Assembly (NCBI RefSeq): GCF_000445185.1
Contig: NZ_AVAF01000164.1
Span: 1-60,657, forward strand
Length of the DNA: 60,657 nucleotides
From: Thermoanaerobacter sp. A7A
GTDB taxonomy: Bacteria > Bacillota > Thermoanaerobacteria > Thermoanaerobacterales > Thermoanaerobacteraceae
Reading direction: 5' to 3'
Shown here: positions 339-60,370 of the stretch, piece by piece
Layout: every line of letters starts with the position of its first letter
Position numbering within the stretch: position 1 is the stretch's first letter
Position numbers and translations under genes: made by a program
Notes under the pieces: model-generated
The model's input: only the letters and a program-made list of their open reading frames with translations
What the model was told of the DNA's origin: nothing
Database searches by the model: none

Positions 339-580
339 TTAAGTAATTTTTGGAGGGATAATAGTACAACCTTCTTTTTCTAAAAATTTAATAGCTTTTT
401 TAATATATTGTTGCTTATGCTTTTGATAAAGTTTTTCTGGCATATTAGTGTAATCGGAGTCAGATGGATTAAAAGGTTCTTTTTTCAAAAGCATATGATA
501 GAGGCAGGTGAGGATCATACGAGCAATAGCAACAATTGTACGTTTATGACCCCGACGCTTTTTAATACGTTCATATTTAA
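339..580 (-). pseudogene. IS110 transposase, C-terminal fragment
   Basis: The minus-strand frame reads KYERIKKRRGHKRTIVAIAR and then MILTCLYHMLLKKE, ending with GCTIIPPKIT and a stop at 341-339. This is the helical C-terminal end of an IS110-family recombinase (Transposase_20 region and tail). The upstream part of the gene is not continuous with it: at about 580-600 the sequence switches to the middle of the same kind of gene on the opposite strand. It is therefore half of a gene broken by an inversion. Confidence 0.7.
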
Positions 581-598
581 GCTTTTCGTCCCTTCTAG

Positions 599-1246
599 TT
601 TCGTCCCTCCTAAGGATATCCGCATGTTACGTGAACTTGTTCGCTATCGTTTTAAACTTATTGGACATCGCTCTAGTGAAAAAAACAGGCTTCAAAATGC
701 CCTCACCGTATCCAATATCGCTTTAGCCTCCGTCGTCAGTGATTCTTTCGGTAAATCTGCTTCTTCTATCATTGAATATATTTTAACTTGCGATACTTTT
801 GACCCTGAATACTGCAAGTCACTTCTACACAAAAGTCTTTATAAAAAGGCTGACGAAGTCATTCAGTCGATTATTGGATACGAATTGAGGGATGATCAAT
901 CAGTCAAGTTGAAGGTTTGCAGAAAACACTATGACTTTATCAATCAATGTGTTTCTGATTTAGATAAAGCCATTTCTCAATTAGCCAAACCTTATCAAGA
1001 CTTGATTGATATCGCTGTTACCCTCCCTGGCATAACCGAAAAATCGGCAACTTATATCATCGCTGAAATCGGCACGGATATGACAGTTTTTAAATCTGAC
1101 AAGCACCTTTGCTCTTGGGCTGGTCTTACTCCTCAAAACAACGAAAGTGCAGGTAAGAAAAAATCTGTCCATGTCTAAAGAGCAGGCGTTTACTTAAAAC
1201 CTCTCTTAATACAGTGTGCCAATGCAGCAATTAGGGATAAAAAGAA
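599..1246 (+). pseudogene. IS110 transposase, middle fragment in inverted orientation
   Basis: The plus-strand frame starts abruptly at SFVPPKDIRMLRELVRYR and runs through the coiled-coil linker to LPGITEKSATYIIAEIG, LCSWAGLTPQNNESAGKKKS. The last part contains the serine of the IS110 Tnp domain (NESAGK). The frame meets a stop at 1176-1178, then continues in frame as RAGVYLKPLLIQCANAAIRD to about 1246, so the stop is a nonsense mutation. The RuvC-like N-terminus (DEDD residues) is missing. Together with the 339-580 fragment it looks like one element with an inverted internal segment. Confidence 0.7.
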
Positions 1247-2135: not shown

Positions 2136-2294
2136 ATGAATATTTTATATATTTCCGGAAGTCCAAGGAAAAAGAGCAACACTGACATTCTTTTAAAATT
2201 AACTATGTCAATTACGGGAGGAGAATTTATAAAGCTTATAGACCTCTATGCCGTAACTACGGCACCATCAGAGGATGAAAATACCCTTTTTTGA
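2136..2294 (+). pseudogene. NADPH-dependent FMN reductase (flavodoxin-like), N-terminal fragment
   Basis: An ATG at 2136 behind GGGTGAGGAG opens MNILYISGSPRKKSNTDILL, the classic N-terminal beta strand and FMN phosphate loop (SGSPRKxSNT) of the NADPH-dependent FMN reductase/iron-sulfur flavoprotein family. Homology seems to fade after FIKLIDL (about residue 36) and the frame stops at 2294, against the left end of the IS110 element. The CxxCxxC segment expected next is missing. TTGAAA at 2089-2094 with TAAAAT at 2110-2115 could be its weak old promoter. Confidence 0.65.
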
Positions 2295-2312
2295 TGTATA
2301 ATTAGTACAGCG

Positions 2313-2455
2313 GCTGGTGAAGAAAGGTCGTTCTTACCTTGGTGCTTTGAGCCCGACTTATAGGCAGACTCCAACGACCAGGTGCACCACAGATTGTTGC
2401 TCCCTTTACGGGAAGCACGCAGGATAGAATAACCCCTTATGGTTGTTGCACCAGC
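2313..2455 (+). ncRNA. Candidate IS110 bridge RNA in the left end
   Basis: The 5' noncoding end of the IS110 element folds on itself. GCTGGTG at 2313-2319 pairs with CACCAGC at 2449-2455, closing the whole domain. Inside, GGTCGTT at 2326-2332 pairs with AACGACC at 2373-2379, leaving a 40-nt loop. TCCC/GGGA at 2401-2413 and AACC/GGTT at 2431-2444 form small hairpins. GGTGCA at 2381-2386 can alternatively pair with TGCACC at 2447-2452. It is known that IS110 recombinases are guided by a structured bridge RNA of roughly 150-250 nt encoded in a noncoding end; size, side and strand fit. Guide loops are not assigned. Confidence 0.55.
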
Positions 2456-2511
2456 TTTTCAATATTACAAGTCGCTATCGTTCAAATTTTAAAAAGGGAG
2501 TTGGTTCTTTC

Positions 2512-3732
2512 ATGGATTTAGTTTATTCTCACGTTTGCGGATTAGATGTCCATAAAAAGAATGTCGTAGCTTGTATAATAACACCAGAAGGTAAAGAAAT
2601 CCGCACTTTTTCAACTATGACCGATGACCTTATTGCATTAAAAGAATTTATTAAAGCTAAAGGTTGTTCTGTTGTTGCTATGGAAAGTACCGGCTCTTAC
2701 TGGAAACCTATTTACAATCTCCTTGAGCTTGAGAATATTAAAATCCTACTCGTCAATGCTAAGCATATTAAAAATGTCCCTGGTAGAAAAACTGATGTAA
2801 AAGATGCCGAGTGGATAGCAAGTCTCTTGCAACATGGCTTTTTGCAAGGCAGCTTTGTCCCAGACAGAGAACAAAGAGAGCTTCGCGAACTTGTCCGCTA
2901 TAGAAAAAGCCTCATTGAAGAAAAATCAAGAGAGCTTAACCGCATACAAAAGGTCTTAGAAGGTGCTAATATTAAACTGTCTTCTGTTGTCTCTGATATT
3001 AATGGAGCTTCTAGTCGCTCTATTCTTGAGGCTATCATAAATGGTGAAGAAAATCCTGAAACCTTAGCACAGCTTTCCCAAGGTAAATTGAAAAATAAAA
3101 TGGATGAACTAAAACGCTCTTTAAAAGGCCTAATTAATCATCACCAAAAAACTCTCATTGAAATTCAACTCAGGCATATTGATTATCTTGACCAAGAAAT
3201 AACTAAATTAGATGAAGAAATTAAAAATAGAATGCACCCTTTTGAACAAGACCTGGCACTGCTGGATACTATCCCTGGTGTCGGAAGAAGAACTGCAGAA
3301 CAAATAATAGCCGAAATCGGTACAAATATGGAACAGTTCCCCTCTGCTGCCCATTTGTGTTCCTGGGCAGGGCTGTGTCCAGGTCATAACGAAAGTGCTG
3401 GTAAACAAAAGTCTGCCAGAACTCGAAAAGGTAACCAAAAATTGCGAAGCTCTCTTATTGAAGCTGCCAGGGCTGCCTCAAGGGCAAAAGATACTTATCT
3501 CTCAAGTCAGTACCACCGCATCGCTGCTCGAAGAGGAGCAAACCGAGCAGCAGTTGCAGTGGCACATAGCATTTTAGTTATAGTTTATCATATTCTCAAG
3601 CAAAAGCAACCATATATTGAATTAGGTCCTACTTATTATGAAGAGAAAAAGCGTAATATGATTATTCGTCAATCTTTAAAAAAGCTAGAGTCTTTAGGTC
3701 TTAAGGTCACGGTCGAATCTGTAGCGTCTTAA
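2512..3732 (+). CDS. IS110-family transposase (DEDD/serine recombinase)
   Basis: This 406-residue recombinase moves the IS110 element by RNA-guided strand exchange in the family model. The N-terminal RuvC-like DEDD domain (residues about 8-160) shows GLDVHK with D12, MESTGSY with E58, and RKTDVKDAEW with D95 and D98. A charged coiled-coil linker follows (about 165-255). The C-terminal Tnp domain has IPGVGRRTAEQIIAEIG and HNESAGK, whose serine (S295) is the expected covalent nucleophile. I chose ATG 2512, just before the conserved VCGLDVHK, over an in-frame ATG at 2443 because 2443 lies inside the structured left end; AAGGGAG precedes 2512 with a longish spacer. All catalytic residues are present, so it looks active. 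Confidence 0.93.
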   Translation: MDLVYSHVCGLDVHKKNVVACIITPEGKEIRTFSTMTDDLIALKEFIKAKGCSVVAMESTGSYWKPIYNLLELENIKILLVNAKHIKNVPGRKTDVKDAEWIASLLQHGFLQGSFVPDREQRELRELVRYRKSLIEEKSRELNRIQKVLEGANIKLSSVVSDINGASSRSILEAIINGEENPETLAQLSQGKLKNKMDELKRSLKGLINHHQKTLIEIQLRHIDYLDQEITKLDEEIKNRMHPFEQDLALLDTIPGVGRRTAEQIIAEIGTNMEQFPSAAHLCSWAGLCPGHNESAGKQKSARTRKGNQKLRSSLIEAARAASRAKDTYLSSQYHRIAARRGANRAAVAVAHSILVIVYHILKQKQPYIELGPTYYEEKKRNMIIRQSLKKLESLGLKVTVESVAS

Positions 3733-3825
3733 CTTTTAATTTAACCTTATTAATCATTCATTTATCCCATATTTTTACATTGGTATGGGTTTAGTTCTTT
3801 GTTGCCTTTTTGAGAGACACTATTT

Positions 3826-4113
3826 TCAGGATAGATATTTTTCTAATCTGCCTGAATACATTATAATCAATTGGTTTAATACTATATCCCAATTTTTATA
3901 TCTTACGGTCCATTTCTTTAATACATTCATACTTACCAAATATAGCATTTTTTCTAATGCTTCATCGGATGGAAATATTGTTTTTGATTTTGTAACTTTC
4001 CTTAACTGCCTATGGAATCCTTCAATTATATTCGTTGTATACATTATTTTCCTTACTTCATTAGGAAATTTATAAAATGGACTTAAAACATTCCATTTCG
4101 CCAAATTGAGTCT
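3826..4113 (-). pseudogene. IS256-family (Mutator-like) transposase, C-terminal fragment
   Basis: The minus-strand frame reads LNLAKWNVLSPFYKFPNEVR, then MYTTNIIEGFHRQLRKVTKS and FPSDEALEKMLYL. 'TTNIIEGFHRQLRKVTK' with an intact glutamate is the hallmark of the third catalytic acid region of IS256 transposases. About 90 of roughly 400 residues remain; an upstream stop and loss of homology mark the break. It was left between the IS110 element and an Rpn-type fragment. Confidence 0.8.
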
Positions 4114-21065: not shown

Positions 21066-21089
21066 TGTGTAAAAAATATTGTTAAAAGC

Positions 21090-21320
21090 TATGATGAGGA
21101 CGAGTAAGTAGAAGCAACTTCCAGAGAGTTGGCGGTAGGTGCGAGCCAATAAGTTCGTTTCTACTGAAAATCACCTCGGAGCTGCAGGCTGAACTACAGT
21201 AAGCTGTGCCGGGCTTCCCGTTATCTTAAATGAGAGATTAAGGCAAAGTTTTTCTTTGTCTTAATAAGTAGGGTGGTACCGCGAACTTCTCGTCCCTGAC
21301 GAGAAGTTTTATTTTTAGTT
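21090..21320 (+). promoter_or_regulatory. T-box riboswitch (isoleucine) of ileS
   Basis: The leader opens with GAGGACGAGTAAGTAGAAGC, typical of stem I. The specifier loop around CTGAAAATCACC offers ATC (21170-21172), an isoleucine codon. The T-box core GGGTGGTACCGCG is at 21271-21283; its TGGT bulge would pair with a tRNA end of A73-CCA. The terminator is AACTTCTCGTC at 21284-21294 with its perfect complement at 21298-21308 and a T-rich tail. Uncharged tRNA-Ile should stabilise the antiterminator and raise ileS expression. Confidence 0.93.
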
Positions 21321-29519: not shown

Positions 29520-29845
29520 TGTATGAAAACCAATGACCGGGAAGAGTAGATATCAGCGTTTAGTCAAAGCGAGCTCGGGAGGGTGGGAGCCGAGTACTGT
29601 AGCTGATATTGAATGGGCCCGTGAGGTGAGATGCGAACTTTTAAGTAGCAGTATCCGGTGGTCTACCGTTAAAAAGACAGGGTATCGAGGAATCTCCGTA
29701 CCCGAAAGAGTGGTCCTGTGTTAAAAAGGTGGCACAAGCGAGCATTTCGCCCTTTTGGTGAAATGCTTTTTTTAGTAATACAGGACAAATTGGGTGGCAC
29801 CGCGAGTCACTTCGCCCCAATGGGCGGAGTGACTTTTTTAATTTT
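29520..29845 (+). promoter_or_regulatory. Tryptophan T-box with two successive antiterminator/terminator modules
   Basis: Stem I is closed by GATATCAGC (about 29549) and GCTGATATT (about 29602). The specifier loop GAATGGGCC offers TGG (29614-29616), the Trp codon. A first T-box-like core, GGTGGCACAAGCG (29729-29740), is followed by a terminator: AGCATTTCGCC 29741-29751 with GGTGAAATGCT 29757-29767 and a T run. A second, canonical core, GGGTGGCACCGCG (29792-29804), is followed by AGTCACTTCGCCC 29805-29817 with GGGCGGAGTGACT 29822-29834 and T residues. Both bulges read TGGC, complementary to the GCCA end of the tRNA-Trp encoded in this window. Confidence 0.9.

Positions 29846-60294: not shown

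Positions 60295-60370
<76 letters not shown>

Follow-up and report, generated by a model that had tools for sequence, protein, structure and literature searches.

The fold of IS621, an element of the IS110 group, has been solved. IS621 has a bridge RNA (bRNA) upstream of its recombinase gene and on the same strand, with two loops, guides ending at a CT core and handshake bases next to the 3' guide; its recombinase combines a DEDD set of residues with a serine, and its targets are repetitive extragenic palindromic (REP) elements (PMC11208160, PMC11208158). Here we describe an IS110 element in a 60,657-nucleotide stretch of Thermoanaerobacter sp. A7A (contig NZ_AVAF01000164.1, the whole of which we call the window) that shares all of these features of layout with IS621 but differs from it in its target, in the class of its RNA and in the order of its guides. 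We consider it very probable that the structured left end of this element is the bRNA of an intact IS110 element, belonging to a lineage programmed for type I-B-like clustered regularly interspaced short palindromic repeats (CRISPR) and having a guide order opposite to that of IS621. Readable directly in the DNA are a conserved structured RNA, covariation of its guides with the flanking sequence, and insertion sites that lie in CRISPR repeats.

A first-pass annotation of the window had proposed a bRNA on the basis of two 7-bp stems, and both are indeed present on the plus strand: a closing stem (helix 1; GCTGGTG at 2313-2319 pairing with CACCAGC at 2449-2455) and a target-loop stem (helix 2; GGTCGTT at 2326-2332 pairing with AACGACC at 2373-2379). 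The 40-nt loop assigned to the second stem has the right length (2333-2372) but is not open, as it contains a conserved hairpin (helix 3; 2339-2356, with compensatory changes) with a guide on each side, and a further hairpin lies within the donor loop (helix 4; 2398-2417). Folding of the single sequence was rejected as proof of an RNA, the fold being unremarkable (z = -1.46, only about -1.5) and matched by 15 of 200 shuffles, so that the claim must rest on relatives. We built a covariance model, R1, from six left ends and searched 93 sources with it, mostly relatives, obtaining 91 hits at E<=0.01 that reach down to about 57% protein identity. Across 77 distinct rows of an alignment that was fitted to the model, and is hence biased toward structure, 88.3% of cells were paired, against 33-43% when the 3' partners were slid. 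Both-sided changes occurred in 24 of the 28 pairs, with all four helices represented (7/7 pairs in helix 1 and 6/7 in helix 2), and one closing-stem pair, T2318-A2450, is mostly a C-A mismatch among the relatives. Conservation of the stems in relatives had been set beforehand as the check that might refute the annotation, and the stems covary. The model and the covariation together delimit the RNA to 2309-2462 on the plus strand, its start probably lying near 2309. R1 gave no hits on IS621 or on more distant IS110s of the same family, which argues for a separate RNA class, and a scan of the window against Rfam returned no hit to a bridge-RNA family. We conclude from these comparisons that 2309-2462 is a real bridge RNA, of a class that is new relative to IS621.

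The ends of the element were placed by comparing its copies. Genomes of the same genus carry many copies, with 86-94% DNA identity and unrelated flanks, and their homology spans window positions 2235-3837 with an abrupt stop at both edges. Because the common stretch stops so abruptly, we place the element at about 2242-3834 (1593 bp, plus strand, a single core copy); the ends near 2290 and 3740 given previously were wrong. The shared bases that extend beyond these ends resemble the target, with CTTATAG on the left (2235-2241, including the AG core at 2240-2241), at the homology edge of copies that sit in different sites, and GTA on the right. The homology edge and a match to the donor-loop guide (below) identify the right end, CAGGATAG at 3827-3834 with core AG at 3833-3834, as the donor site, and the donor junction of the element reads CAGGATAGACTCCCATG. 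The left end measures 270 bp and the right end 102 bp, and the RNA lies within the left, longer one, 5' of the gene.

With the ends in place, the loops can be compared with the DNA on either side. The target-loop 3' guide, CTTATAG (2357-2363, core AG at 2362-2363), covaries with the left flank: when each distinct guide is counted once, 236/336 positions match, against a shuffled mean of 105.5 (z = 16.5; z = 19.3 for all distinct pairs), and the signal is confined to the five bases before AG. The 5' guide, TTCTTACCT (2331-2339), ends in the core CT and covaries with the reverse complement of the right flank, matching it at the four positions before the core (z = 8.5). An IS621-like guide order was also tried on the element and rejected (z = 1.3 for that assignment). 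Since the flanks belong to the host and do not travel with the element, this covariation is not produced by the relatedness of the elements alone. Next to the 3' guide, the handshake guide GC (2364-2365; mostly AC in copies) agrees with the two bases that begin the element's left end, handshake and element bases across copies reading AC/AC in 57 cases, TC/CC in 20, AT/AT in 3 and TG/TG in 1, as expected from the handshake bases described for IS621 (PMC11208158). In the donor loop, the 3' guide (2420-2427) has the same sequence as the element's right end, and its 7-mer recurs exactly at the TTTTC-anchored right end in 63/68 loci (z = 6.8, 15 distinct combinations). The annotation had asked beforehand for loop matches to the target or the element ends, and these were found on both sides of the target and at the right end of the donor; with the covarying stems, they bear out its identification of the structure as a bRNA, although the guide order and the preference for CRISPR repeats described below had escaped it. 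A conserved structure directly upstream of a gene and on its strand could instead be merely a cis-acting RNA or DNA element (a leader, an attenuator or a recombinase binding site), with no guiding role, and the unexceptional single-sequence fold would suit such an element. However, its loop segments covary with host flanks outside the element, which is not expected of a cis element, and we regard this explanation as extremely improbable.

By analogy with IS621 and with work on seekRNAs, the element is presumably active and would excise as a circle. A complex of recombinase and RNA would then pair its first loop with the target DNA and its second loop with the joined element ends, and would exchange strands at the AG/CT core.

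The flanks of close copies identify the site used by this lineage. In six genomes of our collection (G001, which is T. wiegelii, G002, G003, G004, G008 and G009) close copies or their remnants are flanked by GTTTCAATTCCTTATAG and GTAGGCTAAAAAC, which together form one 30-bp CRISPR repeat, the junction being GTTTCAATTCCTTATAG^GTAGGCTAAAAAC. At least 17 CRISPR junctions (19 including remnants), all at one repeat position, were found among about 22 junctions of close copies in the same genus, the five copies outside CRISPRs being that of the window and those at loci L007, L009, L014 and L029. In G004 all eight junctions (8/8) are inside repeats, and seven split repeats, all with the element in one orientation, stand in a single array with 161 intact repeats, whose 155 sampled spacers are all distinct. 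The gene cas1 lies near several of the element-split arrays. Under the customary type I-B reading of the repeat, in which we take it to end in ATTGAAAC, the element is antisense to the array. Comparison of CRISPR spacers with the element gave a longest match of 14 nt among the matches listed, which we take as chance. From the junctions we conclude that the element lineage inserts into CRISPR repeats. Copies could also have reached these arrays through homologous recombination or array duplication and not through guided insertion; the window copy itself looks recombinant, and one copy in G003 has an inverted left end. The seven G004 junctions, which lie between different spacers yet share the same repeat base and one orientation, count against this, and we consider such an origin improbable. 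The G003 copy in question (L221; G003:C1:1400000-1409000) is resident in a CRISPR, and the break of its inverted left end falls inside the RNA.

Guided insertion into the repeat is also consistent with the guides themselves. The window's genome carries the same CRISPR repeat, and the window guides fit it (...CTACCT^ATAAG...) at all nine informative positions and the core, with one G:U; about 0.1% of guides drawn by column fit the repeat as well. A guide-matching 12-mer, CYTACCTATRAG, occurs 5-188 times in each of the 7/7 genomes that have a close element or fragment and 0 times in the 3/3 that do not (Fisher p = 0.008), with reversed-pattern controls giving 0-2 per strand. A second CRISPR repeat type, GTTTCAATTCCTCATAGGTAATGTAATAAC, containing CTCATAG, is found in the window's genome at G000:C15:1-1224 (L210). 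The guides of CTCATAG copies, which come from other genomes, fit GTTTCAATTCCTCATAGGTAATGTAATAAC at all informative positions.

Four observations weigh against this reading of the element. A search of the donor loop's 5' part for a left-end guide gave no pairing signal, and a guide was identified only for the right side of the donor junction. The window's right flank fits the 5' guide poorly. The copies resident in CRISPRs carry the guide CTCATAG, which differs at one position from the CTTATAG in the repeats that they occupy. Finally, the copies with a perfect fit (window and L009) sit outside CRISPRs. The mismatch of the resident guides is not fatal, because in IS621 too a mismatch to the REP targets occurs naturally and is tolerated (PMC11208160). 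It nevertheless admits two readings, a guide selected for CRISPRs or one that only finds the most abundant near-match. In the first, which we rate as somewhat less likely than not, the bRNA is kept matched to CRISPR repeats by selection, the element homing into immune arrays, its guide variants following the repeat variants, and its insertions perhaps disturbing immunity by splitting the arrays. It is conceivable to much the same degree that the RNA is a bRNA whose guide is under no selection to fit, CRISPR repeats being hit only as the most abundant near-match: beyond the one-base mismatch, repeats are plentiful, with about 70-190 copies in most of these genomes, about 5 close copies lie elsewhere, and a random guide drawn by column equals the resident guide's score against the repeat in about 2% of draws. 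Abundance accounts less readily for the placing of every G004 junction in a repeat, or for two guide variants, CTTATAG and CTCATAG, that fit the two types of repeat found in the window's genome, though the CTCATAG copies are in other genomes. If selection for the repeat is the correct account, CRISPR arrays would serve as a repetitive, dispensable and renewable landing site.

The window copy itself lies outside CRISPRs. We examined its flanks at 2100-2241 and 3835-4104, and they match two different uninterrupted loci in relatives. On the left, the target half CTTATAG sits in an interrupted FMN-reductase-like gene, which in the uninterrupted L207-L209 continues past the edge; the right flank is what remains, at the 3' end, of a mutator-type transposase gene that L195 and L200 have without interruption. 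At both sites the intact sequence (L207-L209 on the left, L195 and L200 on the right) contains CTTATAG, the sequence of the 3' guide. That the two flanks derive from different ancestral loci suggests deletion or exchange between two IS110 copies, and the window copy is probably the product of recombination between two copies.

The recombinase gene (2512-3732, plus strand) encodes an intact protein of 406 amino acids, as had been annotated, with matches to PF01548 (E 5e-38), PF02371 (E 6e-25), NF033542 'IS110 family RNA-guided transposase' (E 1.8e-90) and IS621 in the PDB; the predicted residues D12, E58, D95, D98 and S295 are all found. Of the traits of the IS110 family, the element has a DEDD RuvC-like domain and a Transposase_20 domain with a catalytic serine, a structured RNA encoded in a long non-coding end, and RNA loop guides that match both sides of the target. 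Before the RNA, a consensus scan picks out a promoter-like ATGAAA-16-TATAAT (2275-2302, plus strand; 10/12, which alone is no proof of function), whose ATGAAA falls in a GATGAAAAT block conserved in relatives. The scan also marks a terminator-like hairpin 3' of the recombinase gene (3766-3789, plus strand), at roughly the level of shuffles. By eye only, ATTTTCA in the right end and TGAAAAT in the left end could be read as subterminal inverted repeats, at unequal distances from the core. A second IS110 recombinase gene, truncated at its 5' end (PF02371 and the end of PF01548), lies at window positions 408-1178. Elsewhere the window holds T-box leaders at 21082-21300 and 29524-29822, both over the Rfam gathering score, and a minus-strand tRNA at 60298-60370.

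Other relatives have sites of their own. In L133, L134, L144, L153, L129 and L145 the left flank, of the form TTTTC...AG, is a sister element's right end, and the 3' target guide matches it at most of these loci; elements of this type seem to use the ends of related elements as insertion sites. Many members from Bacilli (L164-L190; Paenibacillus, Bacillus, Neobacillus and others) have a common target, CCCGTTAG, and guide and site have changed together in L184 and L186 (CCTATAG) and in L175 (CCTTTAG). About 50 distinct guides can be set against natural sites in this way, revealing which guide positions matter, and as the hosts include thermophiles, heat-stable bridge recombinases could come from the subfamily.

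Insertions of this kind have been recorded before. A 2016 curation reported CRISPRs split by IS110s in several Thermoanaerobacter genomes and noted an ATAG repeat at an insertion in T. italicus (PMC4852346). The elements and sites are very probably those described here, but the curation presented them as transposon insertions, giving neither a guide RNA nor a reason for the choice of site. An RNA guide that fits the CRISPR repeat offers a mechanism for why IS110s split these arrays repeatedly and, if true, would mean that two RNA-guided systems meet in nature. In the full-text open-access literature, which leaves aside subscription papers and preprints, we found no paper linking bridge RNAs to CRISPR-repeat targets.

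Set against the described groups, the element is a composite. On the recombinase strand its first guide pairs with the right side of the target and its second with the left, the reverse of IS621. As a control, two IS621 records were read in the same way, and in both of them ATCGGGCCT, the first guide on the recombinase strand, matches the left flank, which reads ATCAGGCCT in one record and ATCGGGTCT in the other. The seekRNA of ISEc21, also of the IS110 family, resembles ours in coming from a non-coding region 5' of the gene and in having short guides to both target strands, but follows the IS621 order, its bottom-strand match lying 5' of its top-strand match (PMC11187229). A bRNA upstream of the gene, in a longer left end, is the arrangement of the IS110 group; that group's guide order, with the 5' guide for the bottom strand (left) and the 3' guide for the top strand (right), is reversed here. 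The order that we find, a 5' guide complementary to the top strand and a 3' guide complementary to the bottom strand, is instead that of the IS1111-group seekRNAs (ISEc11, ISKpn4 and ISPa11; PMC11187229), from which the element differs in the place of its RNA, the non-coding region of those elements usually following the gene; subterminal inverted repeats of 7-17 bp are a further trait of that group. As far as its sequences allow us to judge, the subfamily combines the RNA position of the IS110 group with the guide order of IS1111, and the joining in one subfamily of traits that distinguish IS110 from IS1111 bears on the origin of both groups.
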